Shown here: in pieces, positions 8,252-28,130 of the stretch
How positions within the stretch are numbered: position 1 is the first letter of the stretch
How the letters are laid out: every line of letters begins with the position of its first letter
Source: a virus
DNA length: 31,148 nt
Reading direction: 5' to 3' (one strand)
Virus record (IMG/VR): IMGVR_UViG_3300009183_000252
Span: 1 to 31,148 of that record
Program-made: the position numbers and the translations under genes
The notes under the pieces: generated by a model
The model's database searches: none
Told to the model about the DNA's origin: nothing
The model's input: the letters and a program-made list of their open reading frames with translations, nothing else

Positions 8252-8257
8252 TTAAGT

Positions 8258-14406: not shown

Positions 14407-15099
14407 TCAATTAAAGTCTTTTTTATTCCAGAACCTAGTGCGATAAGAATTAAAGATATTCACCTTCAATTCATGACCTATTTTCGCTGATTTTATTTCA
14501 TCTTCGCTATCGCCGAATTTCATTTGCCATTTTTCTCGCTTAAAAGGTATTACTTGAACAAGGGGAGTGCCAGCAGGTATGAGACCTTCGAACTCGTTTA
14601 CCTTAAATAAAAAAGGGAAATTTACAGGAGCGTAATAATTATCTGTATCCACTAAACCTGATAAAACTTCGAAGTAAGGGTTAGGATTATGAGCAGGAGG
14701 CATAAAGAAGCAAGAGTAGCCTTTTGGAGTTCTTATACTCCATGGATTTTCAAACTTATGCGCCCCACCTGCGCTCATGTTTGCAGGATAATGTGCTATC
14801 TGAGTTATAGGGTGGAAGCCGAACTTCATATTTCTATCTCCCGAATAGAATGTGCAATTACCGTCTTTAATCGTTACCCAAATGTCAGCCCAAGTAGGTA
14901 TTATGTATCCCGCCGTCATCATATCTAAAACGGGAACACATTTTTTTACTGTAGTACCGGGCCCTGACTCTGTAACGCCTTTTTTATCACCAATATAAGA
15001 CCTAGTATCTTTATACCATTTTGGAGTGAAGTTTTTAGCAGGAGCGGGAAAGTAGTCAGAAGTAACTCCCATAGTGTCGGTAAATAAAATATCTTTCAT
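14407..15099 (-). CDS. TPKGYS-family phage protein (DUF6065-related), copy beside the sulfotransferase
   Basis: The 230-residue product shows conserved blocks in order: PKWY at 26-29, TVKKCVPVLDMMTAGYIIP at 50-68, NPWSIRTPKGYS at 118-129, GLVDTDNYYAPVNFPF at 148-163 and IPAGTPLVQVIPFKRE at 174-189. Proteins with these blocks are frequent in cyanophages and other marine phages and have no established function; the last two blocks are also present in DUF6065. It shares its blocks with the 26310-27041 and 27083-27835 genes next to the halogenase. This copy follows the sulfotransferase. A beta-sandwich with a small-molecule or peptide pocket is a guess. Confidence 0.7.
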   Translation of the reverse strand: MKDILFTDTMGVTSDYFPAPAKNFTPKWYKDTRSYIGDKKGVTESGPGTTVKKCVPVLDMMTAGYIIPTWADIWVTIKDGNCTFYSGDRNMKFGFHPITQIAHYPANMSAGGAHKFENPWSIRTPKGYSCFFMPPAHNPNPYFEVLSGLVDTDNYYAPVNFPFLFKVNEFEGLIPAGTPLVQVIPFKREKWQMKFGDSEDEIKSAKIGHELKVNIFNSYRTRFWNKKDFN

Positions 15100-15150
15100 G
15101 ACTTCACCTTAGCATATTCTCTAAAATTCGGCTAGGTAACTGACCTTCCT

Positions 15151-15869
15151 CTAATTAGATTTCGTTTGGCCATTATTAAAAAATAACGAAGGAGTAAAAT
15201 ATATCTCAGAGTCTAAAGGACTAAGTTCATATAAGTACTTTTTCTCTTTTTCGCTTAAGGCTGTATAGACTTGAAAGGACTCGTCAGTTATCCTATATTG
15301 GGATTTTTTCCGTATTGGCGTTATTTGCGGCGGAATTTCGAAATTGAAATCTGTCGAGATTTTAGCCATAGCCGCTTCGCAAGTTATATTATTCCATTGG
15401 TTATCTCGCAGTAGTATATTGACTTCTAACACTCGGGCTAGGAGAGTTTTTTCATCCATAGTTATTGCTAAAAAATCAGGGTCTAGCATCTCTAAAGGGT
15501 TAATGTATTCAAAGCGAAATTTTTCTTCTCGTATAAAAAATTCTTTGATTGGTAGTTAGCAAGTAAGTTTTGATAAGTTTCTACCCAAGGCATGAAATCT
15601 AGTATGTTAGTTTGTCTTGAGTTGCGTCTGCCGCCTCCCATTTTGTAAAACGCGTAATGGCTAGCAGTTCTTTTTACAGGGTCTCTAAAAGAGGACAATA
15701 CATAATTTTTTTGGCGGTTCAGCCAACCTACATGGTAAGCCCCATTAAGAGTAAAAATACTATTAGCCCATAAAGCCTCAAATAACGGCTCAACGAGAGT
15801 ATTGTATAGATATGTGCCACCCGTTTTACCTATGTGAAAATGATAAAACGACTCGTAGCGAGCACTCAT
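15151..15869 (-). CDS. sulfotransferase-like protein, split at a -1 slippery heptamer
   Basis: The first frame (15869-15492, 125 aa) holds the two PAPS-binding blocks of the PF03567-type sulfotransferases: FHIGKTGGTYL at 11-21 (5'-phosphosulfate loop) and SSFRDPVKRTASHY at 59-72 (3'-phosphate loop). It then stops early. The -1 frame continues without a stop from the slip point, FIREEKFRFEYINPLEM, to 15151. A single -1 slip at T TTT TTA gives a 239-aa protein of normal family length. Without it, the first frame lacks the helical C-terminal half. A lost T in a run would look the same, so this is either programmed frameshifting, a pseudogene or an assembly error. Substrate unknown. TAATG couples it to 15869-16189. 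Confidence 0.72.
15534..15540 (-). other. -1 slippery heptamer TTTTTTA in the sulfotransferase
   Basis: The minus strand reads T TTT TTA in phase with the upstream frame (the first T is the third base of AAT). It is the same heptamer as the HIV-1 gag-pol slippery site. After slipping back one base the next codon is ATA and the following frame is open. A one-base change in the run of six T would also explain the broken frame. Confidence 0.55.
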
Positions 15870-16189
15870 TAGTTTTGGTTGAGTTCGCTCTCTAGTTTTT
15901 GGCGAAGGGCTTCACCTGATAAAACTGGCACATCAAAGTCAAGTTGAGGTAAGCCCCATGCTTTACTTTCTTGTATCCATTCATATTCCACACCACTAAC
16001 TGGCGCAGGCTTTTCAGGTATGCTAATTGCTCCGTCTTTCACAATCTCATTATATGCCAAGCGCTTGAAAGAATCTGCTTCCAAATTTGTTTTGAAAGTG
16101 TTTAATTCTTCTTCAGGCACGCTCGACTTAAAAACTAAAACGTTTATGACGGAGCCGTTTTTAATAAAGGCTACTTCTATGGTGTCCAT
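15869..16189 (-). CDS. unrecognised small protein between fibre and sulfotransferase genes
   Basis: The 106-residue product begins MDTIEVAFIKNGSVINVLVF, a beta hairpin, followed by helical segments and, at about 66-82, VEYEWIQESKAWGLPQ. The plan (Y/F-I-x-N-G-x-V, then W near the end) loosely recalls small phage proteins that accompany tail fibres, but I cannot name the family. It overlaps the glycine-rich fibre gene by 13 bases and leads into the sulfotransferase through TAATG, so the three are probably co-translated. Confidence 0.6.
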   Translation of the reverse strand: MDTIEVAFIKNGSVINVLVFKSSVPEEELNTFKTNLEADSFKRLAYNEIVKDGAISIPEKPAPVSGVEYEWIQESKAWGLPQLDFDVPVLSGEALRQKLESELNQN

Positions 16190-17085
16190 CTAAGTACCAA
16201 TACCCTTCCACTAGAACCTACGTTAGGAGTATTAGGGCCAGGTCTATTAGCGCCATTGCCTCCAGCCTGACTTAATTCAGCGTTTGTGACACCTAGATAA
16301 ATATCAGTATTGGCAGGTAAAGAAGGAGTCCCTTCAGTACCCTGTGTGTTGACAGACCCACCATTGCCGCCAGTAGACGTTAAATTAAAAGCATTCGTAA
16401 CGGCGCCTTGTCCTCCTGAACCAGCGCCTCCACCGAAACTGTTAGAGCCAGCGTTGCCGCCTGCGCCAATCGTAATGGCATAAGTTCCAGTTAGAGCGAA
16501 AGCCGTAGTAGTGGCTGACACTCCACCATTTCCTCCCGCGCCTCCAGCCGAGCCGTAAGGACCATATCTCGCTTGGTTCCAGTTGCCTCCACCGCCACCA
16601 CCGCTTGCACCAGCAACGATTACGTGGGCGTATTGTCCTGCTGAGTAGCCATTATTTGAACCTGTTACGTTGCTTGAACCAAGACCGTAGTTACCTGAAG
16701 TTGTTAATTCTTCTAAAACCATCGTTCCGCCAGCAGTTGTAATTTTGGCGTTTACTGGGCTAATACTCAAATCTAAAGCACCGCTCGCTACGCACTCAAT
16801 TCGGTGAAAGTTAGAGGCAATAGCGTTATTCGAAGAAGTTGAGTTTACGTTAATCTCTTGAATCAAATCGTAATTAGTATCATAAACATAAAGTATGGCG
16901 GTTCCAGTACTAGTTACACAAGCGTAAGTTCCTGCCGTGGTTTGCGGCATTAAAAGCCAAACACGAGTTGTATTGGCTATCGCGAAAATAGAGGTAGCCG
17001 TCGCCTTGCCTGTAAGAGCGCTATTGAGTTGGGCTATAGGTCCTAATTTAGTTGCTACAGGTGAGCCGTTTTCTAAGAAAGCCAT
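16177..17085 (-). CDS. glycine-rich tail fibre / adhesin
   Basis: The 302-residue product begins LENGSPVATKLGPIAQLN and has a beta-rich N-terminal half (VWLLMPQTTAGTYACV). From about residue 155 it becomes glycine-rich: GASGGGGGGNWNQARYGPYG, GGAGGNGG, GAGGNAGSNSFGGGAGSGG. It ends GSSGRVLVLRWTP. Gly-rich tip domains of this kind, ending in a short hydrophobic strand, are found on phage fibre tips that contact the host and vary quickly. It is not collagen-like because there is no Gly-X-Y period. Coupled by TAATG to 17085-17414. Confidence 0.75.
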   Translation of the reverse strand: MAFLENGSPVATKLGPIAQLNSALTGKATATSIFAIANTTRVWLLMPQTTAGTYACVTSTGTAILYVYDTNYDLIQEINVNSTSSNNAIASNFHRIECVASGALDLSISPVNAKITTAGGTMVLEELTTSGNYGLGSSNVTGSNNGYSAGQYAHVIVAGASGGGGGGNWNQARYGPYGSAGGAGGNGGVSATTTAFALTGTYAITIGAGGNAGSNSFGGGAGSGGQGAVTNAFNLTSTGGNGGSVNTQGTEGTPSLPANTDIYLGVTNAELSQAGGNGANRPGPNTPNVGSSGRVLVLRWTP

Positions 17086-17414
17086 TACGCAATCTCACTT
17101 CCGAAGGCGTTAAATGATTGACTTGCTGAAGAAGCATAAACAGTAATTACATCTGCCGCGTTAAGAGTTACACCGATTGTGTAAGTATGCGTAGAGTTGG
17201 CAGGTAAAGCAACATCGTAAGCGAGATAATGTTTGGCGGCTAAAGACTCACCGTCAGGCCTGATTGCCAAGCGATAAGTTCCTGCTGATGCTGCTTGATT
17301 TGCTACTACGACAGTACTTAATACAGCCTCAGTTGCAGAAGGTACTGTGTAAAGGGTTGTTGCGGTTGTTGCGCTTGGGTTAGATTGTCCGAGCACCTTG
17401 TAAGTAGTTGCCAT
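17085..17414 (-). CDS. beta-sandwich structural protein, paralogue 3
   Basis: The 109-residue product has the same plan as the proteins at 13585 and 13890: a YKVLGQSNPSATTATTLYT start, VPSATEAVLSTVVVANQAAS in the middle and FNAFGSEIA at the end. It is more diverged. It sits in the fibre block directly before the glycine-rich adhesin, which supports a fibre-shaft or attachment role for this paralogue family. No catalytic motif is seen. Confidence 0.6.
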   Translation of the reverse strand: MATTYKVLGQSNPSATTATTLYTVPSATEAVLSTVVVANQAASAGTYRLAIRPDGESLAAKHYLAYDVALPANSTHTYTIGVTLNAADVITVYASSASQSFNAFGSEIA

Positions 17415-17417
17415 GGT

Positions 17418-18095
17418 TTAGCCTCCTATGAATAAGAACGAGTTTAGCACGCCTGTAGTTAGAGATTGGGCGGACACGAGACTCGCTGATGATGAAATTG
17501 ACGCGTTTTCTGTTTGAGTTTGGTAGGTAGAAAAAAAACTTGGTACTGTCGTCCAAGTTATATTAGTTAGTGCTGTATAAGTAGCCGCTCGCGCATTTAG
17601 AGCCGTATAAGTGGCATTTCCTAACTGAAAGTATCTATACTTGCCACTAAATACATAACTCGAAAGGGCTTGGTCTATTTGCCCGTCGAGGATATCGATA
17701 TTGGCTGTAAGTACATTCCATAAAGAATCTGAAACTAATCCAACGTAAGTATCGGCAGTTATTGCGGGACTTATATCGGCTAAGTTAAGAGTTCCTGAAG
17801 TTGTGTAAGGCAAACTAATTGTATAGGTTCTGCCTTTAGGGAAGGCTTCTTCGACTGTGATTGTATAAGGGATAGGGACAAGGTCGGGGTCATTAGTAGC
17901 AGGTAACGTAGTACTAAAGGAGCCGTTAGCGTCTAAAGTAACTGACTTAGTAGATGGAACTATCATTTGGTTATCTGTTCCATTTTGCAGTAAATCACTT
18001 AAAGTAAATTTAACTTGTCCGCTAATAGCGGCACCTGTGTAGTCAACATAGTTGCCTGCTAATGCCACAGTAGTTATTGCTGCGCCTAGTGCCAT
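17418..18095 (-). CDS. fibre protein with carboxypeptidase-regulatory-like domain
   Basis: The 225-residue product begins GNYVDYTGAAISGQVKFTL, then LDANGSFSTTLPATNDPDLV, then EEAFPKGRTYTISLP. This G-x-Y-x-D-x-x-G-x-x-x-x-G-x-V-x-F pattern is that of the carboxypeptidase-regulatory-like beta domain used at the base of phage fibres. The C-terminal part is Ser/Thr-rich, ending NSFLFIGG. It is a paralogue of 18288-18827 with the same domain and a related end. The domain likely anchors the fibre. Coupled to 18095-18286 by TAATG. Confidence 0.65.
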   Translation of the reverse strand: MALGAAITTVALAGNYVDYTGAAISGQVKFTLSDLLQNGTDNQMIVPSTKSVTLDANGSFSTTLPATNDPDLVPIPYTITVEEAFPKGRTYTISLPYTTSGTLNLADISPAITADTYVGLVSDSLWNVLTANIDILDGQIDQALSSYVFSGKYRYFQLGNATYTALNARAATYTALTNITWTTVPSFFSTYQTQTENASISSSASLVSAQSLTTGVLNSFLFIGG

Positions 18096-18286
18096 TAGGC
18101 ACCTACCGCTAAGAATGGATTAGCAACTAAAGGAACGAGGGCTTGGACCGCTGCTAAATCGCTTGTGACATCTGCGCTCGCAACATTTATAGCCGTAGAA
18201 ATAGTTCCACCAATAGCAGTTACAGGGGTTATTCCTGCCATGGTTGCTGTGTAAGTAGTAAATGCCGCAATTCCTACGTTAGCCAT
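18095..18286 (-). CDS. small 63-aa protein with conserved hydrophobic C-terminus
   Basis: The 63-residue product is Ala/Thr/Val-rich (MANVGIAAFTTYTATMAGIT) and ends LVPLVANPFLAVGA. The end resembles those of three neighbouring fibre proteins. It has no membrane-type helix long enough to count and no recognised domain. It is TAATG-linked to the next fibre gene. Likely a small structural element of the fibre complex. Confidence 0.55.
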   Translation of the reverse strand: MANVGIAAFTTYTATMAGITPVTAIGGTISTAINVASADVTSDLAAVQALVPLVANPFLAVGA

Positions 18287-18287
18287 T

Positions 18288-18827
18288 TTATAGTCCCATC
18301 AGTAAATACGGGCTTAAAGATACTTTAGTTATATTTCCAACTTCATTAGAAACTAGTATAGCATTAGCCGTAGCAGTATCGGCAATGTCAGGTGCGCTAT
18401 CTAAAGTAGCAAAGGTTCCATTAGCAGCGTTATATGAGGCTAAAAGAGTATTGTACTGAGTGGTAGTTACAAATCCTGCTGCCTCAGCACCACTTACTGC
18501 TTCTGATAAATCAGATAAATCGTAAGTTGCTGTTCCTGAGGGCAAAGTTATGTAAAAATCTCTACCACCTGAAAAAATTTCCTCAACTTGGTAAGCGATT
18601 GGATTTGGTGTATAGTCTGTATCATTAGTAACTGGTAAAGTTACAGTGAAAGTACCATTAGTATCTAAAACTTTAGTTATGGCTTGTCCTACTACTATTT
18701 GATTTTGGTCAGTATCAATTACATTACAAATTGGAGTAAAGCGAACTGAGCCCGCTTGTGCGGCACCAGTAATATCAACATAGGTGCCATTTAGTACACA
18801 GGTAGAGATATCGCCGCTTAAAGCCAC
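18288..18827 (-). CDS. fibre protein with carboxypeptidase-regulatory-like domain, paralogue
   Basis: The 179-residue product repeats the plan of the 17418 protein: LNGTYVDITGAAQAGSVRFT, then LDTNGTFTVTLPVTNDTDYT, then VEEIFSGGRDFYITLP and DLSDLSEAVSG. It ends VSLSPYLLMGL. The two genes are tandem-type duplicates with different C-terminal regions, which suggests swapping of tip segments on a shared base. ATG at 18827, directly after 18837-19046. Confidence 0.65.
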   Translation of the reverse strand: MALSGDISTCVLNGTYVDITGAAQAGSVRFTPICNVIDTDQNQIVVGQAITKVLDTNGTFTVTLPVTNDTDYTPNPIAYQVEEIFSGGRDFYITLPSGTATYDLSDLSEAVSGAEAAGFVTTTQYNTLLASYNAANGTFATLDSAPDIADTATANAILVSNEVGNITKVSLSPYLLMGL

Positions 18828-18836
18828 TTTGAACTC

Positions 18837-19046
18837 CTAACCCATTAACATAAAGGAATCAAATCCTCCGCTTGCTGGTGATGCCCATTTTACTCCGCCT
18901 GACTCATTTGAGTCGGCTGTAAGAACTGTATTATTGGCGCCAACTGATAATTTACCTACAGTGTTGTCGCTTGTAGCAACGAACATATCGCCCTTGCTAT
19001 CTACAAGTACTTGAGGAACTGGATACTGAATAATCGAAATAGCCAT
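18837..19046 (-). CDS. short fibre-tip segment (69 aa)
   Basis: The product contains KGDMFVATSDNTVGKLSVGA and TVLTADSNESGGVKWASPA, a very common unit in phage tail-fibre shafts and tips (KGDLLVAT-x-DNTV-x-x-L-x-VG, then VLTADS-x-x-x-G-x-KWA). It ends GGFDSFMLMG. Here the unit is encoded as a free small protein rather than inside a long fibre. It probably joins the neighbouring small fibre proteins in one complex. Confidence 0.7.
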   Translation of the reverse strand: MAISIIQYPVPQVLVDSKGDMFVATSDNTVGKLSVGANNTVLTADSNESGGVKWASPASGGFDSFMLMG

Positions 19047-19048
19047 GA

Positions 19049-19321
19049 TTAAACTCCTTGTCGGATAACGCCCACAGTTTGAGTGCTCGAAGCAACTACG
19101 CCATAAATGCCTTCGCCGTCTTGTAATTCAATAGCGAAAGCAGTTCCTGCTAAAAGTAAAAAGCCATAAGAGGCTGTGGTAACACCTGTGCCACCAATAT
19201 AAACACTTTGACCAGTGGTTGGATTCTGTACTAAAACTGTTTGGCCATCTCGTCCTGCTCCTGTGGCAGAAAGTAAGGTAGCAGTAGTGCCTACTGAAAC
19301 TTGTGCGTGAGTTAGTGCCAT
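19049..19321 (-). CDS. small beta-rich virion protein (90 aa)
   Basis: The product runs MALTHAQVSVGTTATLLSAT, GRDGQTVLVQNPTTGQSVYI, GGTGVTTASYGFLLLAGT and GEGIYGVVASSTQTVGVIR. This plan is typical of small phage proteins that pad or decorate capsid or fibre surfaces (VGTTATLL, then GxTVLVQN, then GGxGVTxxxYG, then YGVVAS). It follows a stable hairpin and has a GGAG ribosome site before ATG 19321. No enzymatic residues seen. Confidence 0.65.
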   Translation of the reverse strand: MALTHAQVSVGTTATLLSATGAGRDGQTVLVQNPTTGQSVYIGGTGVTTASYGFLLLAGTAFAIELQDGEGIYGVVASSTQTVGVIRQGV

Positions 19322-19334
19322 AGTTGCTCCTTTA

Positions 19335-19374
19335 AGAAAGAGTGATACCCCATTACTGAAGTATCACCCTTTCT
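19335..19374 (-). terminator. stable hairpin in the gap after the capsid genes
   Basis: A 14-bp stem (AGAAAGGGTGATAC pairing with GTATCACTCTTTCT on the minus strand, one G-U pair) with a 12-base loop lies in the 71-base gap between 19393 and 19321. The stem ends in U-rich sequence but is not followed by a free U-tract, so it may be a weak terminator, an RNA processing site or an mRNA-stabilising 3' end. Its place after the highly expressed capsid genes fits partial transcript ending. Confidence 0.55.
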
Positions 19375-19392
19375 AAATAATTAAGTAGATCT

Positions 19393-19791
19393 TTAGGCTA
19401 TGCGGTAAATCGATACTGTCGTTGGAGCAGTTACAACTACTTGCCAGCGAGATGCTTGTCCAGCAGTCGCGGCAGTTGTTGCAAGTCCTACGATTGTTAC
19501 ACCAGTTCCACCAGCCAAAGTAGCAACATAAGCCGCTAAGTTGATATAACTGAACTTAAAACTTGTTCCTACAACAGAGCCTGTTGCTGCAATAATCGCA
19601 GCGGCAGTTGGAGTAGTAATAGTTCTTGCTGTTGTAAGAGTCGCAGTAGTAATACCACCTTGCATGCCCGCTACTGTGTGTACCATTGAGGCACCATCAG
19701 CGATATTTGTTACTGAACGAATCTGTTGCATGTTACCAGTTACAGTAAGTCCACCAACAACCGCATTTCCTCGCGTAATTCTATTAAACAT
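19393..19791 (-). CDS. small structural protein downstream of the major capsid gene
   Basis: The 132-residue product is rich in Ala, Thr, Val and Gly, with TTARTITTPTAAAIIAATGS, VGTSFKFSYINLAAYVATLAG and WQVVVTAPTTVSIYRI. The last part has the feel of a jelly-roll domain of the type seen in capsid fibre or decoration proteins. It follows the major capsid gene and precedes the fibre set. No recognised family. Confidence 0.6.
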   Translation of the reverse strand: MFNRITRGNAVVGGLTVTGNMQQIRSVTNIADGASMVHTVAGMQGGITTATLTTARTITTPTAAAIIAATGSVVGTSFKFSYINLAAYVATLAGGTGVTIVGLATTAATAGQASRWQVVVTAPTTVSIYRIA

Positions 19792-19811
19792 ATTTCTCCT
19801 TATTTTGGAGA

Positions 19812-19837
19812 GGGAGAGGCTTTTTAGGTCCCCTCCC
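19812..19837 (-). other. hairpin between capsid gene and next gene
   Basis: On the minus strand GGGAGGGG pairs with CCTCTCCC (one G-U) around a ten-base A-rich loop, just after the major capsid stop codon. There is no U-tract. It may slow decay of the capsid mRNA from the 3' side. Confidence 0.4.
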
Positions 19838-19849
19838 TACTCAATTTAA

Positions 19850-20827
19850 TTAAGCGACTACTGAATCCCAGAACCAACCTAGATCAGAAGCAATAACTTT
19901 ATTGTCAAAAGCCATTTCTCCTTCAATACGGTCTGCCTTGAGAGATTCCATACGGAATGAACTTACGCCAACTGTTGAACCGATACCGCCTGATACACCT
20001 GTCCATGAGAAAGAGTATCCAGCAGAAGGAGTCAACAAGCCTGGTGTTGGAGCAACATAAGCAAGAAGGGCTTTCTTTCCTGAGGTAAATGAATACGCAG
20101 CAGTTGCACCTTCGTTGTTTGTAGCCTTAACACCTTTAGAGATGATAACGCGAGGAATATCAAACATCGCGGCTAACATATCTGAAGTAACAGTCTGTGC
20201 AGATGTGTACTTGATACGGTCTACGATATCAGGGTGATTCTTTAGTGCACGGAATACATCGTATCCCAATACTAAAGTGTTTGGTTCCATACCAGTTGTT
20301 GAAAGAATACCTGCCTTAGCGTCTTCGATATCATCAATTGGATCTGAAGCAGCATAGTCTGACCATTGCTTTACTTCGTTTGTTGAAGGAGTTCCTGAAA
20401 CGCCATCGTAATCATTTGCCCATACGCCACCAGCAAAGAAGTCTGTGTTCCATTGGATTTCCTTACGAAGCATTAAACGACGAGTTACAAACTCTGTCGC
20501 TTCGCGAAGTGGGTTGATAGGTGCGTCTGAGTTAGCAAGAGTCTGGTCATCTACGTCCTTATGGAACGCAAATACATCTGCGCTATAAGAACCAGTTGAT
20601 AGACCGTAGCCTCCACCAGCAGATTCAGTTCCACCAGCGCGGCGTTGTGCCTCATCGCGGAACCAATCGTTCTTAGTGTAGGTAAAGAACTTGTCAGACT
20701 TCTTGTCCACAGGAATTACTGGGAACACCTTGTCTGCAATAAAGTTGTCTTGATTTTGTAGGTAGGCAATTGAGATGTTAGTCAGAATCGCGTCTACGTG
20801 TACTGAGTTGATATTTGGCTGTGGCAT
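19850..20827 (-). CDS. major capsid protein (HK97 fold)
   Basis: The 325-residue product begins MPQPNINSVHVDAILTNISI and follows AYLQNQDNFIADKVFPVIPV, TYTKNDWFRDEAQRRAGGTE and LSTGSYSADVFAFHKDVDD, the order seen in major capsid proteins of actinophages and related siphophages. The later part, LVLGYDVFRALKNHPDIVDR and ESLKADRIEGEMAFDNKVIA, gives the P- and A-domain elements. The gene follows scaffold and decoration genes, the classic head order. A Shine-Dalgarno GGAGCG precedes the ATG at 20827. Its N-terminal NSVHVD peptide recurs in the maturation protease. Confidence 0.93.
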   Translation of the reverse strand: MPQPNINSVHVDAILTNISIAYLQNQDNFIADKVFPVIPVDKKSDKFFTYTKNDWFRDEAQRRAGGTESAGGGYGLSTGSYSADVFAFHKDVDDQTLANSDAPINPLREATEFVTRRLMLRKEIQWNTDFFAGGVWANDYDGVSGTPSTNEVKQWSDYAASDPIDDIEDAKAGILSTTGMEPNTLVLGYDVFRALKNHPDIVDRIKYTSAQTVTSDMLAAMFDIPRVIISKGVKATNNEGATAAYSFTSGKKALLAYVAPTPGLLTPSAGYSFSWTGVSGGIGSTVGVSSFRMESLKADRIEGEMAFDNKVIASDLGWFWDSVVA

Positions 20828-20841
20828 TTTTTATTCGCTCC

Positions 20842-21234
20842 TTATGCTGCTCTGCCAGCGTTGGCGCAAGCGACAACGACGGTTACGATTTCGCCAGACG
20901 CTCCACCTGTAACGGCTTGAGCAACGGCGTACTTAGTTGTATCTGTTCCATGAACGATTGCAACGCCTGCACCTGCTGATGAAGTACCAACAACTGCTGC
21001 TGCGGCAACTGTGCCACCTAGAACTAACTTGCTACCACCTGCAACAAGAACTTCTGCTTCTTGTCCTGATGTTGGAGCATTTTGTAGAATGCCAATTGGC
21101 AAATCTGTTGCTGCGGCTACTGCGATTGCTTGACCGCTTGAGTTCAACTTTACAAATGTGTACTGTAAAGCAGATAGGTCAGCACCCGCAACGAGCGTTA
21201 ACTTTACTGAATAATTACTAATTTCATATGCCAT
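20842..21234 (-). CDS. capsid decoration / stabilisation protein, DUF2190-like
   Basis: From the ATG at 21234 the product is 130 residues, MAYEISNYSVKLTLVAGADL, then YTFVKLNSSGQAIAVAAATD, LPIGILQNAPTSGQEAEVLV and GGSKLVLGG. The pattern GADLS-x-LQY-x-x-V-K, PIGILQN-x-P and E-V-x-V-x-G is that of DUF2190-type capsid cement proteins. A GTG at 21246 would add four residues, but it lies tight against the GAAGGG ribosome site, so I prefer the ATG. It follows the scaffold and precedes the major capsid gene, the usual order. Confidence 0.82.
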   Translation of the reverse strand: MAYEISNYSVKLTLVAGADLSALQYTFVKLNSSGQAIAVAAATDLPIGILQNAPTSGQEAEVLVAGGSKLVLGGTVAAAAVVGTSSAGAGVAIVHGTDTTKYAVAQAVTGGASGEIVTVVVACANAGRAA

Positions 21235-21235
21235 T

Positions 21236-22099
21236 TTACTTAGCACCCTTCTCGTTTAGGTATTGATTGTACAAGTCAGTGTTTTTAGCAACAGCGTTAG
21301 CAAACGCCTGTTCGAAAGTTACACCATCTGTTCCAGCAACAGCCTTAGCCATAGAAGTTAACTGCTCGTAAGCAGAACCGCTAGTAGGTGTTGATGACTT
21401 GCCGATTTCGGCAAATATATTTGCTGACTCCGCTTGAGCATTAACTGAGTTAAGTGCGTCTTCGAAAGACTTTGCTAACTCTTCGTTAATTTCTGCTAAC
21501 TGGCGAAGTGCTGGGCCAATTTTTTCAGCATCTAGACCTAGGAATTTCCAAGCCTTTGCTTTCTCAATTGACTCACTATCAGCGCGTGCAACTCTTTCTG
21601 CTTTTAGAACTTCTTCTGCACTATTAGCACGAGCGGTTGCTTCTGCTGCTGACTTCTCTAAATCTTCTAACATTTTACGAAGTGGCTCTGGAGCCGACTT
21701 CACTAATGAAGCGGTATCAATTACAACTTCATCGTCTTCTGACTTCTTAAGTTTTCCTTTAGCAGTTGCTAATTCGTCCTCAAGCATTTTGATTTTTTTC
21801 ATCATTTCGTCGTAAGACATTTTTTTCTTGTCTTCTTGCATCGCCTTATCTACTTCTTCAGTAGACACGACTTCAGAAGTTACTTCCACGTTATTATTTT
21901 CTGACATGGCTTCCTCCTCAGTCCCGTTCTGGAACTCGTTTGAGTTATTTGTATTATTACTTAGGTCTGAAAGAAGGTCGTCCACGCCAGTTAAATTCTC
22001 TGACTTGATGACTAACCAACCTTCATGAAGGTGAGCAGGGTGGTCAACGCCACTAGTTTCCTCGATATTGAGAGCAACCATTTTGCGGGCCTTGGCCAT
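21236..22099 (-). CDS. putative capsid scaffold protein
   Basis: The 287-residue product starts KARKMVALNIEETSGVDHPA, a motif seen at the start of actinophage scaffolds and at the end of XkdF-like proteases. It then has an acidic, Asn/Glu-rich disordered stretch, a Lys/Glu-rich coiled coil (MMKKIKMLEDELATAKGKLK) and a helical C-terminus (FEQAFANAVAKNTDLYNQYL), the classic scaffold layout. Scaffolds guide procapsid assembly and are then cleaved or released. Its place directly before decoration and capsid genes supports this. AAGGAG precedes the ATG at 22099. Confidence 0.78.
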   Translation of the reverse strand: MAKARKMVALNIEETSGVDHPAHLHEGWLVIKSENLTGVDDLLSDLSNNTNNSNEFQNGTEEEAMSENNNVEVTSEVVSTEEVDKAMQEDKKKMSYDEMMKKIKMLEDELATAKGKLKKSEDDEVVIDTASLVKSAPEPLRKMLEDLEKSAAEATARANSAEEVLKAERVARADSESIEKAKAWKFLGLDAEKIGPALRQLAEINEELAKSFEDALNSVNAQAESANIFAEIGKSSTPTSGSAYEQLTSMAKAVAGTDGVTFEQAFANAVAKNTDLYNQYLNEKGAK

Positions 22100-22138
22100 A
22101 CTTCTCCTTTTTCATAGATAGTTCCTACGTACGCGGTC

Positions 22139-22160
22139 CTATTCCGATAGAATAGTAACA
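22139..22160 (-). promoter_or_regulatory. candidate promoter with overlapping inverted repeat, capsid operon
   Basis: In the 111-base gap before the scaffold gene the minus strand has TGTTACTAT (22160-22152), an extended -10-like element. An inverted repeat, CTATTC-5 bases-GAATAG (22155-22139), overlaps its end. A second repeat, CTAGCC-9 bases-GGCTAG (22205-22185), lies just upstream, without a U-tract. The -35 region is not recognisable. The position fits a late promoter for the head genes; confidence is low. Confidence 0.3.
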
Positions 22161-22210
22161 CGATAGTCTTTAGTTTAGCGAGTACTAGCCTTGATTTTAG
22201 GCTAGAGGAT

Positions 22211-22357
22211 TCACTTTGTTGGCGTGTTTCGATTCTTAAAATCTAAACTTTTTCTTACATAGCAGTCGTTGCAAATTACTTGAGTTCCCCATGGCTGTCC
22301 GCCAAACTTTGGGTTGAAAATTTTGCTGCAAAAAGGACAAGGTCTAGGACTAGCCAT
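22211..22357 (-). CDS. 48-aa protein with zinc-finger-like Cys pairs
   Basis: The product, MASPRPCPFCSKIFNPKFGG then QPWGTQVICNDCYVRKSLDF, has two CxxC pairs (Cys7, Cys10 and Cys29, Cys32), so it likely binds zinc. The short length is normal for phage treble-clef or ribbon proteins. It has only a weak ribosome site (GAGG 14 bases ahead), and follows the 22374 gene by 16 bases. Function is unknown; DNA or RNA binding is a general possibility. Confidence 0.68.
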   Translation of the reverse strand: MASPRPCPFCSKIFNPKFGGQPWGTQVICNDCYVRKSLDFKNRNTPTK

Positions 22358-22373
22358 TAAAAGTTATTTAACC

Positions 22374-22778
22374 TCACTTAACAGGTCCGCCTACTATCCA
22401 AGCATCACAAGTGCGTTTACTGGCGCACTTAAAATCAAAAGCCTCACAATATCCGAGGTCTCCAGCCCTAGTAGTATCCCAAGCATTAGCCGCGCTATCT
22501 CCAGCCGCTAATCCGTCTTTAATACAGTTGAGCATCTTTGGAGTTTGTATAAATGCCGCGCAATTTCCGCACTTAGATTTCTTCGCCTCGGCGACTGTTG
22601 TATCCCAACGGTCTGCTTTCTTTTGCCAAAATTCAGTATTAGGTTCATTTGGATTTAACGGACCATAAGCCGCTTTATCAATTGCGTCTTTTCGGTTGGC
22701 TAAATTTTTTTCTACGTCAGTAGTCGCGACAGGGCAACCTTCTGCTTTGTTAACGTAGAAACTAGTTAAATCGACCAT
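22374..22778 (-). CDS. Cys-rich marine-phage-type protein (134 aa)
   Basis: The product carries a distinctive C-terminal half: KKSKCGNCAAFIQTPKMLNC, then AWDTTRAGDLGYCEAFDFKC, ASKRTCDAW and IVGGP. The paired Cys residues suggest a metal or iron-sulfur site, or structural disulfides. I have seen this pattern in phages of marine bacteria and cyanobacteria, always near structural genes, without known function. It is TAATG-coupled to the small membrane protein before it. The N-terminal part is helical and charged. Confidence 0.65.
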   Translation of the reverse strand: MVDLTSFYVNKAEGCPVATTDVEKNLANRKDAIDKAAYGPLNPNEPNTEFWQKKADRWDTTVAEAKKSKCGNCAAFIQTPKMLNCIKDGLAAGDSAANAWDTTRAGDLGYCEAFDFKCASKRTCDAWIVGGPVK

Positions 22779-22948
22779 TACTCCTCTTCAGAATTCCTTA
22801 GCGGGAAAGTGGCAATCCATAATACGCTGGAAAGAATAATAGCATAACCTACTACAGTTTTCGCGGAACCGTCAAGGACGACCCAAGCAACAAACATACC
22901 TAGCAAAGTCCAAATTTGGTTAGCAATATCTGAGAACCATTTTTTCAT
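22778..22948 (-). CDS. small membrane protein with two helices (56 aa)
   Basis: The product starts MKKWFSDIANQIWTLLGMFV and has two hydrophobic helices (about 13-26 and 31-49, the second GYAIILSSVLWIATFPLR) with a short DGSAK turn and an acidic end, NSEEE. The two sides are joined by TAATG overlaps (stop 22780-22778, start 22948-22946), which supports real translation. Its ribosome site, AGAAGGAGG, sits in the last Arg codons of the preceding gene. Similar two-helix proteins are common in phages of marine bacteria. Function unknown. Confidence 0.65.
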   Translation of the reverse strand: MKKWFSDIANQIWTLLGMFVAWVVLDGSAKTVVGYAIILSSVLWIATFPLRNSEEE

Positions 22949-24432
22949 TACATCCTCCTTCTATAACTAGCGCTACCTGCTAAGGCTGCGGAAGCGGCAG
23001 ATTGGACTGCTATTCCACTTACGATAACTGCGGCAACGATTGTTTGTTCTGACTCGGCCCGTTCCTCATCAGACATATCTGCTCCGATACTGCTAATAGC
23101 CAATAAGGCTTGAGCAGGGTCGCTAAAAATAGTTGTAAGTAATTCTACTGGACTCTCTAATACAACTAAGGCTGCGGCAACTTCAGCAGTTACGATTACT
23201 TCATTTCCGTTAGCGTCTTGGCGTACTTCAACAGGCGTAGAAGGTGGAAGGTCGTCTAAAGTAATTCCCGCTTCAGCGATAGCCTCTACTGTTACTGCTT
23301 CACCTTCAGCCGACTCAATTAAGGCTTCAGCAACTAATTCTCTTTCAGACTCAGTGAAAGTTCCATCGGCGCTTAATGCTTCAGAGAGATTATTTACTTC
23401 ATCTTGAGTAATTTCTCCGTCTTGAGATAAGGTTTCTAGTATCTCTACTGCGTCCTCTGTTGTAACTTGCCCGTTTGAAACTAAGTCCTCAACTAAATTA
23501 TTCATTTCGGCTTGTGTAATAGGTTCTTGGCTTTCTACCATTTCGTTGGTAGGCTCGTCTTGTGGTCCTTCCAACTGACTTTCTTGCTCTAGTTCTTGTG
23601 TCGCTTGTTCTAGTGTTTCTTCTATCAAAGACTCGCCAACAGGAACAGATTCCCCATCAGTTAAAAGTTCTTCTATGGGTGGCTCAGGTATTAGTTCTTC
23701 TATCGTGGGCAATGGCTCTAGGTTTGTATCTATCACAATAATCTGAGGGGGAATATATGGATTTACTATCTCTGGTGTTATCACTGGTGGCTCTACTGGA
23801 ACAACAGGTGGCACTACTACTGGCTCTACTGGCGTAGGCGTTACTGGTTCAGGGGCAAGTTCTACAGGCGCAGTAACTTCAGTTATGCCGATTGCCTCTA
23901 ATGTTACGATACTTCCATCATTTAATCTAGCCCCAGTTCTTTCATCGCCATACAAAGGTCCTTCTACGTTATAGGTATATTCAACTTGGCCTGTAAGAGT
24001 TATTTGCGCAGTAATTACGATATTAGTAACGGCACCATTTAGAGTTCCGTAAGGGCGATAAGCCCCATCTACTTGAAAACCGCCATCGCTGACTCTAATT
24101 ATGAAATGGGTATCAGGCATACGGTTTGGCAAAGCCCACCAGTCCCTAGATTCAATAGATACAGAAGGAGTAGTGGGATAGGTCCAATAAGTTCCGTCAG
24201 GATTACCAAAAGTTATTACCGAGTTAGTCGTTGCGTAAACATTTGAATAAGTTACTTCATCAAAAATAACTGTAGTTGTTAAGGGTACTTGATAACTAAC
24301 ATCATCTCCGCCATTAGTAACAATAACAGTTACAGCAGGTTCAGGTGCAGGCTCTCCTTCAGCGTAGGCAGGAGTAATAAATAGCCACCCTGATAACAAG
24401 TAAGCAGCAAATAATAAACGCAGAGTTTTCAA
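22948..24432 (-). CDS. secreted, membrane-anchored protein with EF-hand-like repeats
   Basis: The 494-residue product has a signal peptide (residues 1-24, cleavage after PAYA), then a beta-rich domain (about 34-180: VPLTTTVIFDEVTYSNVYAT, ITFGNPDGTYWTYP, SRDWWALPNRMP), a Pro/Glu/Val linker (189-305) and three tandem units SNGQVTTED, QDGEITQDE and SADGTFTESE (about 319-363) that resemble half EF-hands. At the C-terminus is a hydrophobic helix (465-487) and a basic RRRM end. This layout predicts export and anchoring in the host membrane with the bulk outside. It starts with TTG at 24432 and likely has its own promoter. Possible roles are exclusion of other phages or a virion surface protein; I cannot tell. 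Confidence 0.78.
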   Translation of the reverse strand: MKTLRLLFAAYLLSGWLFITPAYAEGEPAPEPAVTVIVTNGGDDVSYQVPLTTTVIFDEVTYSNVYATTNSVITFGNPDGTYWTYPTTPSVSIESRDWWALPNRMPDTHFIIRVSDGGFQVDGAYRPYGTLNGAVTNIVITAQITLTGQVEYTYNVEGPLYGDERTGARLNDGSIVTLEAIGITEVTAPVELAPEPVTPTPVEPVVVPPVVPVEPPVITPEIVNPYIPPQIIVIDTNLEPLPTIEELIPEPPIEELLTDGESVPVGESLIEETLEQATQELEQESQLEGPQDEPTNEMVESQEPITQAEMNNLVEDLVSNGQVTTEDAVEILETLSQDGEITQDEVNNLSEALSADGTFTESERELVAEALIESAEGEAVTVEAIAEAGITLDDLPPSTPVEVRQDANGNEVIVTAEVAAALVVLESPVELLTTIFSDPAQALLAISSIGADMSDEERAESEQTIVAAVIVSGIAVQSAASAALAGSASYRRRM

Positions 24433-24444
24433 GCGTAATCCCCA

Positions 24445-24467
24445 TTAAGTTAGTTCCAGTAACTTAA
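24445..24467. repeat. perfect inverted repeat in the leader of the secreted-protein gene
   Basis: TTAAGTTA and TAACTTAA flank a seven-base centre. It lies between the candidate -10 at 24473-24481 and the TTG start at 24432, so it could be an operator or a leader hairpin next to the ribosome site. Confidence 0.6.
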
Positions 24468-24472
24468 TAGTT

Positions 24473-24481
24473 ATTATCGCA
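24473..24481 (-). promoter_or_regulatory. candidate extended -10 promoter for the secreted-protein gene
   Basis: The minus strand reads TGCGATAAT, a TGn element followed by a hexamer matching TATAAT in five of six positions. It begins eight bases after the halogenase stop and lies about 40 bases before the TTG at 24432. A perfect inverted repeat follows directly. No -35 hexamer is clear, as is usual for extended -10 promoters. Confidence 0.4.
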
Positions 24482-24488
24482 TAGAGGC

Positions 24489-26021
24489 TTAAGCAATGGC
24501 GGTTAAAGCCGTTAAAAACTCCTTATGGTTCATAAACTTAGCAATCAAAGCATTATCTTTAGCAATTAAGTTTGCATACTCTTGCCTCTTACTTGGCGTT
24601 AGGTATGGTTCTCCTAAACGTAATAAAGTTTGCTTATCTATTAAGCCATTGCCAATTAAAATCCAATTAACCGCGATACTCTCAAATAAAGCGCTTTCAT
24701 AGAAGTCGAAATTCCTAGTCAAGACTTTCTCTTTGGCTACATCTAAAAGGTATTGGACTCTGTGAGATGCTTTATTCCTAGTAGAAAAGTCTTTCCAAAA
24801 TTCAGTATCTTTCCTCGCTGAGGCGTAGTGGAGATATAAGAAATCTACAGTTTCCAAAGTCTGGGCTAAAAAGACTGTATTCAACTTATCTCTTATTTGG
24901 TCGCTTCTAACTTCTAAATTGGCAACATTACTCATAAACTTTCTTAACATTACGATGGCCTGCATAATAGAAGTCGCTTCTAACGGTTCGATAAAACCTG
25001 TAGAAAGTCCTACACCGAAAGCATTCTTAATCCATATCTTTTCATAACACCCTGCTGTGAAATCAAACGCACCTTTATCTGCCCTAGGATAATGAGGCTC
25101 ATAGCCTAAGTAACTTTCTATCTCTTCCGCGGCTTCTTTTTCTGAAATATAATCGCTATCGAATACATACCCGCAACCATATCTATTCTGTAAAGGTATT
25201 TTCCAAATCCAGCCATACTTCATAGCGATAGCCTCTGTATAAGGCGGAACGTCTTCACCCATTTCTATAAAAAAAGGAAGTGCCTTTTTACAAGGTAACT
25301 TGTCAGTATGTGACTTCCAAGTACTCTTATAGAAATTGCCAATTATTAACCTTCTAAAACCTGTGCAGTCAAAAACGAAATCGCACGGCAAAAAAACCTT
25401 ATTAGTTTTTAGGGCTGTTATGTAGCCTTCTTCATCGCTAACAATTTCAGAGATGATTCCTTCTTCATGCTTTACTCCACGGCTTATGGCAACAGACTTT
25501 AAGTATGCCGCTAATAAGCGAGCGTCGAAGTGTAAAGAGAAACTACTATGGGGTTCTATCAGCATTGTTTCTGGGTTTTTAACAAAAGGAACTTTATTAC
25601 TTTCCCCTGACTTTTCGAGGAATGAATAATCCTTCAAGTCGTCATCAAAAGTAGGGGCGACTAAATGAGCGTAGTTCGTTACTTCTTCTTCATAAAGGCT
25701 TTTAAGGCTCCATGAATAATCATTAGTAACGCTATCTTTCACATAGAAGGGTTGATGATAAGACTTTCGCGAAGAACTCCAATTAGTAAATTTAATACTA
25801 GTTTTGATAGTCGCTTGGCAATTTGCAATAATTTCAGGAATAGATATTTCTAAAAACTCTAAAACTTCTACTAGGTGCGGTGTACCGCCTTCACCTGCTC
25901 CTAAAATGCCATACTCTTCACTTTCAATTAAAGTAATATCAGCGAAAGGAAAGGTGCGTTGAGCATATAAGGCTGTTAGCCACCCTGCTGTTCCCCCACC
26001 TGCAACGATTATTTTTTTCAA
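24489..26021 (-). CDS. flavin-dependent (tryptophan-type) halogenase
   Basis: From a TTG at 26021 the product is 510 residues, full length for the family. It has the FAD-binding GGGTAGW (8-14), GEGGTPH (43-49), a Lys73 in TIKTSIKFTNW that aligns with the catalytic Lys79 of PrnA and RebH, the halogenase signature WIWKIP (271-276), and GLSTGFIEPLEATSI (338-352), whose Glu345 matches the conserved catalytic Glu. All key residues are present, so it should be active with reduced flavin, O2 and halide, given a host flavin reductase. The start overlaps the stop of the membrane gene as TTGA. A longer form from 26087 adds 22 residues before the FAD motif and is less likely. Substrate unknown; VirX1 of a cyanophage is a precedent. 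Confidence 0.93.
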   Translation of the reverse strand: MKKIIVAGGGTAGWLTALYAQRTFPFADITLIESEEYGILGAGEGGTPHLVEVLEFLEISIPEIIANCQATIKTSIKFTNWSSSRKSYHQPFYVKDSVTNDYSWSLKSLYEEEVTNYAHLVAPTFDDDLKDYSFLEKSGESNKVPFVKNPETMLIEPHSSFSLHFDARLLAAYLKSVAISRGVKHEEGIISEIVSDEEGYITALKTNKVFLPCDFVFDCTGFRRLIIGNFYKSTWKSHTDKLPCKKALPFFIEMGEDVPPYTEAIAMKYGWIWKIPLQNRYGCGYVFDSDYISEKEAAEEIESYLGYEPHYPRADKGAFDFTAGCYEKIWIKNAFGVGLSTGFIEPLEATSIMQAIVMLRKFMSNVANLEVRSDQIRDKLNTVFLAQTLETVDFLYLHYASARKDTEFWKDFSTRNKASHRVQYLLDVAKEKVLTRNFDFYESALFESIAVNWILIGNGLIDKQTLLRLGEPYLTPSKRQEYANLIAKDNALIAKFMNHKEFLTALTAIA

Positions 26022-26320
26022 AGTAGTAGCCCAAAGTGTTTCAGTATAAATATCAACGCGAGCGCACTCCAAAGTATGTTGAACCAAATTAAAGTAGGAA
26101 TAGTTTTAACAGTCGAGGACCAAATTAAGCCGAGGCTACTAATTAAAGCAAAGATATAAAACCACCAGATACTTACATCAAAAAGCAAGCCCGGAATTAT
26201 TATTATGCCCTTAGCAAGAAAGGCAAAAAACTCTACTGTATTAGCCCGCGTCCAGTATTTTTTATGCCGCATAGTTCCAAGCGCTACCACCCAAGCCATG
26301 TGATTTCTTTTAGAGTTCAT
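26018..26320 (-). CDS. small three-helix membrane protein beside the halogenase
   Basis: The 100-residue product has a basic N-terminus (MNSKRNHMAW, RHKKYWTR) and three hydrophobic segments, about 31-47, 50-67 and 73-93 (LIWFNILWSALALIFILKH). It is coupled to the halogenase by a four-base TTGA overlap and to the upstream gene by 11 bases. Position suggests it works with the halogenase, perhaps anchoring it, moving substrate or product, or transporting halide. I do not recognise the family. Confidence 0.7.
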   Translation of the reverse strand: MNSKRNHMAWVVALGTMRHKKYWTRANTVEFFAFLAKGIIIIPGLLFDVSIWWFYIFALISSLGLIWSSTVKTIPTLIWFNILWSALALIFILKHFGLLL

Positions 26321-27041
26321 CTGATATTGCCTGTAGCCCTCCGCCTGATTTTGAGTTAATTCTAGTCTGTGATGCTTCTATATTATACGCATCTCTTTTT
26401 TTCATAAATCGATATACAAAGTTAGTCTTCTTTTTCTTAAAAGTCATGTAATGTACTAAAGGTTCCCCTTTTTTGATATTTACTTCTTCGCCATCGCCAA
26501 AATAAAATAATTGCTGGCTTAAAGCGTGAGAAAGCCAAGAGTCCCACATACCTGCGGCTATTTGCCAATCGCGGTCCGCGTGGTAGAAAAGAGGTAGTTG
26601 TAGAGTTGAGTACCCTTTAGGAGTTTTTAAGAACCAAGGGCAATTCAGTTTGAAAATTAGTTGGGCTTTATCGCCTCTATGTTTGTAATCCATATAGTCT
26701 AACATTTGGTCTTGAGGGTGCGCTTTAATAGTGTAATACTCTCCAATGCCAGCCTGAGCCCACCATTGGTTGCTTTCTTTATCGTACTTAAAAGACATAT
26801 CGCACCAAGCGGGAAGTATTACCCCTGTAGTAAACCAATCAACAAAACTAGGACAAGTTTTAATCGTTCTTCTTCTTTGGCTCTTTAATCCAAAATTACC
26901 TAAGGGTGAAAATCGCGGAACCTTCTTCCAAGCGTCAGGAATGAATTTCATTGCAGGTTGCGGTTGGCATAAAGGGTCTTCTGCTAAGCCCGGAACATTA
27001 GTAAGGAAAGTCATTAGCGGTTCTTTTTTGCGATTGAACAT
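26310..27041 (-). CDS. TPKGYS-family protein beside the halogenase
   Basis: The 243-residue product shares blocks with the 14407-15099 protein: IPDAW at 34-38 (versus PKWY), TIKTCPSFVDWFTTGVILP at 59-77, NCPWFLKTPKGYS at 133-145, and IKKGEPLVHYMTFKKK at 189-204. The aromatic-rich middle (YSTLQLPLFYHADRDWQ) and a basic C-terminus follow. It begins at ATG 27041, with a possible second start at ATG 27014 (MTFLTN). Such proteins are common in marine phages and unexplained. It overlaps the membrane gene, so it is in one transcript with the halogenase. Confidence 0.72.
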   Translation of the reverse strand: MFNRKKEPLMTFLTNVPGLAEDPLCQPQPAMKFIPDAWKKVPRFSPLGNFGLKSQRRRTIKTCPSFVDWFTTGVILPAWCDMSFKYDKESNQWWAQAGIGEYYTIKAHPQDQMLDYMDYKHRGDKAQLIFKLNCPWFLKTPKGYSTLQLPLFYHADRDWQIAAGMWDSWLSHALSQQLFYFGDGEEVNIKKGEPLVHYMTFKKKKTNFVYRFMKKRDAYNIEASQTRINSKSGGGLQAISDEL

Positions 27042-27082
27042 GTTACCAGCCTAGTTTATTTACTTAAGTAGCACAAGTCCTC

Positions 27083-27835
27083 TTAAGGTTTTTGATGGTC
27101 TAAAAATTCGTTGCCATAAACATCTTGGCCTTTGAAGTACAGCCTTCCTATATTGTTTGTAAGGCTATCTTCTACCTCTCGCCTATGAGTTACTGTATCT
27201 ACTAGAGTTTGAAGACTTTCTTGCATTGTTTCTTCGTCAAAAACTTCCTCTGCTAATTTCAATGAAAATGAATCAGCGTAATATCTTGGAATTGGAATGA
27301 AACCAGCAAGCGGAGTTCCCGCAGGTATAAATACTTTAAGATTAGGCATTTGAATTTTTAAGTTGAATGTAAAGGGGTTATTTAAGTTATCTGTCTCTAC
27401 CACTCCAGTCATAACAGTTATATTTGGAATAACATAGTTAGGTGGGTTTATCGTCATTAAATTAACGCCCTTAGGAGTTTTTAGCGTGATAGGTGGACTT
27501 ATAGTTATGATTCCTGAACCGAAATGACTCTCTATCATAAATAGTTTTCTATCGAGAGTTTCTCTTTCTTCATAAAAATCAAAAGTTACAGCGCCTATAT
27601 CACTCCCGCCGTCCCAAGTAAAAGAAAAGTCGAACTCATTCGTAACGATAAATCCATATTGGTTGCCTATAGTTAAAGGCAAGCATCTATAAAAGTGCGG
27701 CGTAAACCAATCTCTAGTTTTCTTTGGCCTTTGTATTAAATTAAGTACTCTTTTTTCTACTGAACTAGAGTTATCAACTAGTGGGCTTATTACCACCGCG
27801 ATAGTTTTATCAGGGACTTCTTTACCTTTTGGCAT
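27083..27835 (-). CDS. DUF6065-like protein
   Basis: The 250-residue product has the DUF6065 order of blocks: FYRCLPLTIGNQYGF at 48-62, FTWDGGSDIGAV at 72-83, ESHFGSGI at 102-109, LKTPKGVNLMTINPP at 118-132, TGVVETDNL at 143-151 and IPAGTPLAGFIPIPR at 170-184, ending near GRLYFKGQDVYGNEF. DUF6065 is known from bacteria and phages without a confirmed function. The TPKG and IPAGTP blocks are shared with the two TPKGYS-family genes in this window, so all three are probably distant paralogues. It heads the halogenase gene group. Confidence 0.75.
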   Translation of the reverse strand: MPKGKEVPDKTIAVVISPLVDNSSSVEKRVLNLIQRPKKTRDWFTPHFYRCLPLTIGNQYGFIVTNEFDFSFTWDGGSDIGAVTFDFYEERETLDRKLFMIESHFGSGIITISPPITLKTPKGVNLMTINPPNYVIPNITVMTGVVETDNLNNPFTFNLKIQMPNLKVFIPAGTPLAGFIPIPRYYADSFSLKLAEEVFDEETMQESLQTLVDTVTHRREVEDSLTNNIGRLYFKGQDVYGNEFLDHQKP

Positions 27836-27875: not shown

Positions 27876-28130
27876 TTACTTAGTTAGAGAACTCATTTTA
27901 TGGCCGACTTGAATATCTGTTTCTTTACCATCTCGATATAATTGAATTAGTACGGCAGGATTATCTTTTTCGCCTTTAATCTTAAACTTAGTATTAGGAA
28001 TATCTAAAGTGCCATAATCCATGATATGGACTACTTTACCTGTTGCCCTACCGCCTGATGAGTTCCATGAAACCATATCTCCTTCTTTTAAGGACTTGGC
28101 TTTATCTAGTGCAGTGTTATAGAGAAACAC
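27876..28130 (-). CDS. HVA1/DUF2945-like Tudor-domain protein
   Basis: The 84-residue product holds LKEGDMVSWNSSGGRATGKV, then LDIPNTKFKIKGEKDNPAVL and QVGHKMSSLTK. This is the pattern of the HVA1/DUF2945 SH3-like barrel (GD-x-VSWNS-x-GG, then I-x-GT-x-NPA-L, then GHK), a short domain often encoded near phage head genes. It starts with a GTG that overlaps the stop codon of the preceding gene (TAGTG). The hosts' or virion function is not known. Confidence 0.75.
   Translation of the reverse strand: MFLYNTALDKAKSLKEGDMVSWNSSGGRATGKVVHIMDYGTLDIPNTKFKIKGEKDNPAVLIQLYRDGKETDIQVGHKMSSLTK

Follow-up and report, generated by a model that had tools for sequence, protein, structure and literature searches.

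Phage proteins of the phrog_7084 family, with a predicted dUTPase fold, are encoded beside genes for modification enzymes

The lake-virus record IMGVR_UViG_3300009183_000252 of IMG/VR, possibly a fragment, was analysed over its full 31,148 nucleotides (positions 1 to 31,148; hereafter the window) for three proteins, referred to as A, B and C, that are encoded next to candidate tailoring enzymes. At one site (site 1) C and B are grouped with a small membrane protein and a flavin-dependent halogenase, and at a second (site 2) A stands beside a sulfotransferase-like gene behind a tail-fibre module. Both groupings, leaving aside the tail-fibre module, had been described in an initial annotation, and the open reading frame (ORF) listing places all named genes on the minus strand at the coordinates given there. 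The features are listed below with their lengths in amino acids (aa) and their supporting evidence; L numbers denote loci used for comparison.

27083..27835, minus strand: family member C, DUF6065 proper, 250 aa (PF19541, phrog_7084, AlphaFold2 model, Foldseek)
26310..27041, minus strand: family member B, 243 aa (phrog_7084; orthologues in L009/L361 and L378)
26018..26320, minus strand: membrane protein, 100 aa (ORF; 88% identical copy at the same place in L361)
24489..26021, minus strand: flavin-dependent (tryptophan-type) halogenase, 510 aa, TTG start (PF04820, PDB matches, active-site columns)
22948..24432, minus strand: proline-rich protein, 494 aa, signal-like N terminus (synteny with L348, L349, L352, L364, L365 and L378)
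16177..17085, minus strand: glycine-rich tail-fibre-like protein, 302 aa (phrog_863, tail fibre assembly, E 1.4e-4)
15869..16189, minus strand: 106-aa protein between fibre and sulfotransferase (ORF; homologue at the same place in L378)
15151..15869, minus strand: sulfotransferase-like gene, in two frames in the window, 15492-15869 and 15151-15489 (phrog_3347 E 0.002; L036; L378)
14407..15099, minus strand: family member A, 230 aa, after the tail-fibre module (phrog_7084, AlphaFold2 model, Foldseek)

Site 1 runs from a protease gene through a 144-aa protein, a TUDOR-domain protein, C, B, the membrane protein, the halogenase and the 494-aa proline-rich protein to scaffold and capsid, and site 2 comprises the tail fibre, the 106-aa protein, the sulfotransferase-like gene and A. 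From C to the halogenase the genes form an overlapping run, in which B and the membrane protein share 11 bases and the stop of the latter overlaps the halogenase start by 4; the same order of these four genes was found in L361. Neither tRNA genes nor Rfam features were found in the window.

A, B and C are one protein family. All three match the phrog_7084 profile over most of their length (E 2.6e-59, 2.4e-36 and 1.7e-15, respectively), so the sequence blocks they share reflect homology and not chance, as the initial annotation had proposed from a common TPKG block and a late PxGxP block. The blocks themselves are less uniform than described: A and B carry TPKGYS and C carries TPKGVN, while the late block is IPAGTP in A and C and IKKGEP in B. 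Against the DUF6065 model (PF19541) C scores 121 bits (E 7e-35), above the curated cut-off of 26.6 bits; A reaches 14.7 bits, under that cut-off, and B gives no match. Many A-type relatives also pass this cut-off.

AlphaFold2 models of A (predicted local distance difference test, pLDDT, 92; predicted template modelling score, pTM, 0.87) and of C (pLDDT 85) were compared with the PDB by Foldseek. The top matches were all dUTPases or dCTP deaminases, with best E-values of 8e-5 and 4e-4 and template modelling scores of up to 0.71 when normalised to the dUTPase. In a viral structure library, members of the family itself and uncharacterised phage proteins came first, followed by dUTPases. A and C are thus predicted to adopt the dUTPase (beta-clip) fold, and B would share it by homology, the models covering A and C; the single fold expected for the three proteins is to this extent borne out. 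When PDB sequences were searched with the family profile there was no significant hit, a dUTPase appearing at E of about 1. Because the sequence evidence on its own is weak, the fold assignment rests on predicted structure. The copy in cyanophage S-CREM1 is annotated as a triphosphate nucleotidohydrolase in its record, so the resemblance was partly visible earlier.

In an alignment of 73 sequences, Cys54 and Gly64 are invariant (73/73 each), and Arg188 and Asp153 are kept in 71/73 and 70/73, respectively. Position 151 is Asp or Glu in every sequence, so that together with Asp153 the catalytic Asp of motif 3 is represented, and the motif as a whole is retained as G-[IV]-[VI]-[DE]-[ST]-D, resembling GIVDTD. 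The motif 1 Asp and the motif 2 Arg-Ser (PRS) are absent across the 73 sequences, the columns having been matched through a weak profile alignment. From these residues the family appears to have lost dUTPase catalysis.

The halogenase, described at the outset as complete, is indeed so. It matches Trp_halogenase (PF04820) at E 1e-99 and phrog_2928 at E 2e-103, and it retains GGGTAGW, GWIWKIP and the Lys73 and Glu345 positions, which are invariant. Matches to halogenases in the PDB reach E 1.7e-63, with VirX1 (6qgm) at E 1.2e-46. The sulfotransferase label stands on softer ground, namely phrog_3347 at E 0.002 and motifs resembling a 3′-phosphoadenosine-5′-phosphosulfate (PAPS) loop recognised by eye, and neither Pfam nor NCBIfam gave a call for this protein. 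A second contig of the same phage, L036, agrees with the window over 3.2 kb with zero mismatches and one gap, and carries the gene as a single 239-aa frame (5848-6567); since that copy reads through, the split in the window is a one-base artefact or polymorphism. A programmed frameshift was considered, a slippery-looking A AAT TTC being present, and was rejected on the same grounds.

Relatives with capsid proteins about 78-100% identical were compared at both sites. The cassette from C to the halogenase is common to the window and L009/L361 only; it is absent from the site in L348, L349, L352, L364 and L365, and in L378 B alone is left. B has orthologues of 71% identity in L009/L361 and of 67% in L378. 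At site 2, L378 has the fibre, the 106-aa protein, the sulfotransferase and an orthologue of A (62%) with an oxygenase beyond, L365 and L366 have the fibre, an A-type gene and an oxygenase without the sulfotransferase, and many relatives have none of these accessory genes. As presence and absence vary among such close relatives, both sites are accessory positions. Relative to L361, synonymous divergence (dS) is 0.18 for the capsid gene and 0.9-3.0 for the cassette genes, which indicates that the cassette genes have been exchanged. Ratios of nonsynonymous to synonymous divergence (dN/dS) of 0.07-0.18 for the genes compared with L361 (0.09 for the halogenase) place them under purifying selection. 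The repeated pairing with enzymes that the initial annotation had noticed is real, but the halogenase is dispensable, as L378 illustrates, and the pairing with a sulfotransferase was found in two phage lineages only.

The family ranges over phages, haloarchaeal viruses, Proteobacteria, Verrucomicrobia and Acidobacteria. A has relatives in 56 of 50,697 phage records, which belong almost entirely to Hafunaviridae-type haloarchaeal viruses and to cyanophages. For C-type relatives, viral contigs yielded 190 confirmed matches and bacterial contigs 37 loci, and DUF6065 exceeds its cut-off in 34 of 289 alphaproteobacterial genomes. Enrichment of neighbours was assessed against random positions in the same loci after clustering at 70% identity; the p values presuppose random placement within a locus and still contain shared ancestry beyond this clustering.

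The commonest enzyme partner is a 2-oxoglutarate (2OG)-Fe(II) oxygenase and not a halogenase. Such an oxygenase lies within one gene of the member in 13 of 53 C-type viral clusters (4.4 expected, p 2e-5), in 18 of 81 A-type clusters with halogenase-fetched loci included (7.5 expected, p 1e-5) and in 5 of 13 bacterial clusters (1.0 expected, p 4e-4); in the set retrieved with A alone, directly adjacent oxygenases are not in excess. Adjacency to halogenases is weaker but recurs across the tree. With halogenase-fetched loci excluded, a halogenase lies within three genes in 7 of 64 A-type clusters (2.7 expected, p 0.002), and for C-type proteins the number is not above chance (2 versus 1.8 expected). 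Viewed from the enzyme, a family member occurs within two genes in 12 of 86 halogenase clusters (6.0 expected, p 0.005) and somewhere in 18 of 80 halogenase loci. On a FastTree phylogeny with several long branches, where state changes were counted without a shuffled control, the oxygenase state tends to follow clades (47 rows, 13 changes) and the halogenase state is scattered (20 rows, at least 17 changes). Enrichment beside modification enzymes, which the initial annotation had offered as a check, is accordingly found for oxygenases in C-type, A-type and bacterial loci, more weakly for halogenases, and for C-type halogenases not at all. In S-CREM1 a halogenase flanks the member on one side and several oxygenase genes in a row on the other, with a collagen-like gene nearby; the order is matched in Syn10, whose downstream genes are annotated as hypothetical. 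Three further viral contigs, L176 (5322-6008), L228 and L217, have a member between or beside two or three halogenase-like frames.

Bacterial homologues also form domain fusions. DUF6065 is fused to a Cupin_8/JmjC domain in five alphaproteobacterial loci (L136, L328, L329, L331 and L333) and to SapC in one (L330), whereas the long N-terminal fusions apparent in L332, L334 and L335 came from false upstream frames in GC-rich DNA. In the gammaproteobacterial locus L113, DUF6065 (7411-7995) is paired with a 2OG oxygenase (7992-8726). Around the bacterial DUF6065 loci no halogenase was detected. In two alphaproteobacterial genomes (L454 4827-7262 and L455 4384-6854) SapC directly follows a Trp halogenase near large genes that, by eye, are receptor-like.

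The surroundings in the viruses may point to host-binding parts of the virion. A-type copies often terminate tail-fibre modules, and relatives have the same tail-fibre site. Among 147 genes near family members, the domains Gly_rich_2 (10), fn3 (9), Collagen (2) and Mtd_N (2) were recorded, as against fn3 (2) and Collagen (1), with no Gly_rich_2 listed, in 147 far genes; in the same tally 2OG oxygenases numbered 6 near and 3 far, counts too small to decide. In halovirus HF2, VP1 and the genes downstream of it, which have been linked to host specificity (PMC7230728), are three to four genes away from the member. A small protein resembling tail-fibre assembly proteins (cluster c2), frequently encoded upstream of A-type genes, was tried as a specific partner and set aside, as its excess over random is marginal once dereplicated.

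The membrane protein at 26018..26320 and the 494-aa proline-rich protein gave no match and no confident match, respectively, in family-profile searches. The latter has a hydrophobic C terminus, occupies the capsid-module site with or without the halogenase, and is a possible virion or envelope protein. In L361 a 145-aa cysteine-rich protein (CxxCxxCC-like, 4903-5340), absent from the window, stands between the halogenase and the proline-rich gene. The small Hva1_TUDOR-domain protein at 27876-28130 (E 8e-11), near the capsid protease, is kept in many relatives.

These observations are best accommodated, with a probability of about 0.45, by a view of the family as a former dUTPase now acting as substrate-binding or adaptor subunit of oxidative tailoring enzymes, in these phages probably for the maturation of virion adhesins. 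An ancestral dUTPase-fold protein would have lost dUTPase catalysis and would then have come to serve 2OG-Fe(II) oxygenases and JmjC/Cupin_8 proteins for the most part, with flavin-dependent halogenases as recurrent further partners. The subunit, by fold homology a putative trimer, might bind, in what was once the nucleotide pocket, the molecule that is to receive the hydroxyl group or halogen. Since A-type copies often close fibre modules and the HF2 member lies near receptor-binding genes, maturation of host-binding virion parts is the likely setting in these phages. The functional partnership suggested by the initial annotation gains support from the enrichment and from the Cupin_8/JmjC and SapC fusions, with oxygenases as the chief partners, and presentation of a substrate, one of the roles it gave as examples, may still apply.

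Several findings weigh against this interpretation. Most members have no detected oxygenase or halogenase within two to three genes, B persists without a halogenase in L378, and bacterial members occur without tail fibres. In Hyphomonadaceae (L124-L130) DUF6065 stands alone in a conserved chromosomal neighbourhood adjoining a kdsA-like gene, which suggests a housekeeping role without an oxygenase partner. The E-values for the fold are modest, profile-profile alignment to dUTPases gave a weak local match for A-type proteins only, and the support for the partnership consists of gene context and fusion.

The main rival, a rather unlikely but substantial one, is a separate enzyme with new chemistry, derived from a dUTPase or dCTP deaminase and catalysing a step of the same pathway that precedes or follows that of the oxygenase or halogenase. 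The near-invariant polar positions Cys54, Asp/Glu151, Asp153, Arg188 and His/Asn137 look like an active site, the C-terminal tail is conserved, fusion to a catalytic Cupin_8 domain would also suit a two-step enzyme, and the family is widespread in bacteria and archaeal viruses that lack halogenases. However, it has no known activity, the catalytic residues of motifs 1 and 2 are gone, and the conserved polar residues form one site only putatively. A broader form of the adaptor proposal, in which the repurposed fold would be a general adaptor that brings host-binding virion proteins, or other proteins in the case of bacteria, to oxygenases, halogenases and sulfotransferases and thereby lets phages chemically decorate and even halogenate their own adhesins, is considered unlikely.

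It is also improbable that these are accessory genes sharing hypervariable loci with oxygenases, halogenases and fibres with no functional link. Such hitch-hiking would be in keeping with the presence or absence of the cassette at one site in close relatives, with the exchange evident from its dS, and with a halogenase enrichment of about two-fold over random, absent for C-type proteins; it accounts for the pairings with halogenase and sulfotransferase nearly as well as a partnership would. It does not explain the domain fusions or an oxygenase adjacency that is clade-conserved and also seen in bacterial chromosomes, and the overlapping genes from B to the halogenase recur at the same place in L361. 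That the family is itself the protein substrate of the oxygenase or halogenase, one of the roles first proposed, is very unlikely: a small conserved protein beside several different modifying enzymes, with invariant or nearly invariant Trp, Cys and Pro positions, might suggest it, but the protein is fused to catalytic domains in five loci, has a globular fold predicted with high confidence and no obvious modifiable tail, and occurs without such enzymes. A working dUTPase or dCTP deaminase of nucleotide metabolism, to which the predicted fold, the S-CREM1 annotation and the proximity of members to ribonucleotide reductase (HF2 and S-RIM4) or thymidylate synthase (HRTV-7) would lend themselves, is highly improbable given the missing motif 1 and 2 residues, the regular dUTPase in 14 of 16 bacterial genomes with DUF6065, and the separate dCTP deaminase of HF1-group viruses (PMC7230728).

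No biological substrate has been agreed for VirX1 and other phage halogenases; the cited literature proposes only free tryptophan or a part in host antibiotic protection (PMC2984593, PMC9964418). An accessory protein that is conserved, has a predicted fold and, in bacteria, has homologues fused to JmjC-type oxygenase domains offers a concrete handle on both partner and substrate, and a widespread uncharacterised family gains a predicted fold and a testable role.

Comparison with known systems delimits what is new. phrog_7084 and DUF6065 (PF19541) had both been catalogued without function, and the predicted fold, the oxygenase partners and the Cupin_8 and SapC fusions are added here. With the trimeric dUTPase and dCTP deaminase superfamily (PF00692 and relatives) the family shares the predicted fold and the motif-3-like sequence, but it lacks the motif 1 Asp and the motif 2 PRS, has an extra N-terminal region and an insertion, and gives no sequence-family match. 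The Trp halogenase-SapC-TonB receptor clusters of Alphaproteobacteria are related through SapC, a halogenase neighbour there and elsewhere a fusion partner of DUF6065, but no DUF6065 was found within these clusters, and the phages have no TonB receptor. A parallel in gene content is the VirX1 locus of cyanophage Syn10 (PDB 6qgm), where halogenases, a phrog_7084-type member and oxygenase-family genes stand in a row; the window comes from another host and phage type, the halogenases are 26-28% identical, and the window has an additional membrane protein and no 2OG oxygenase.

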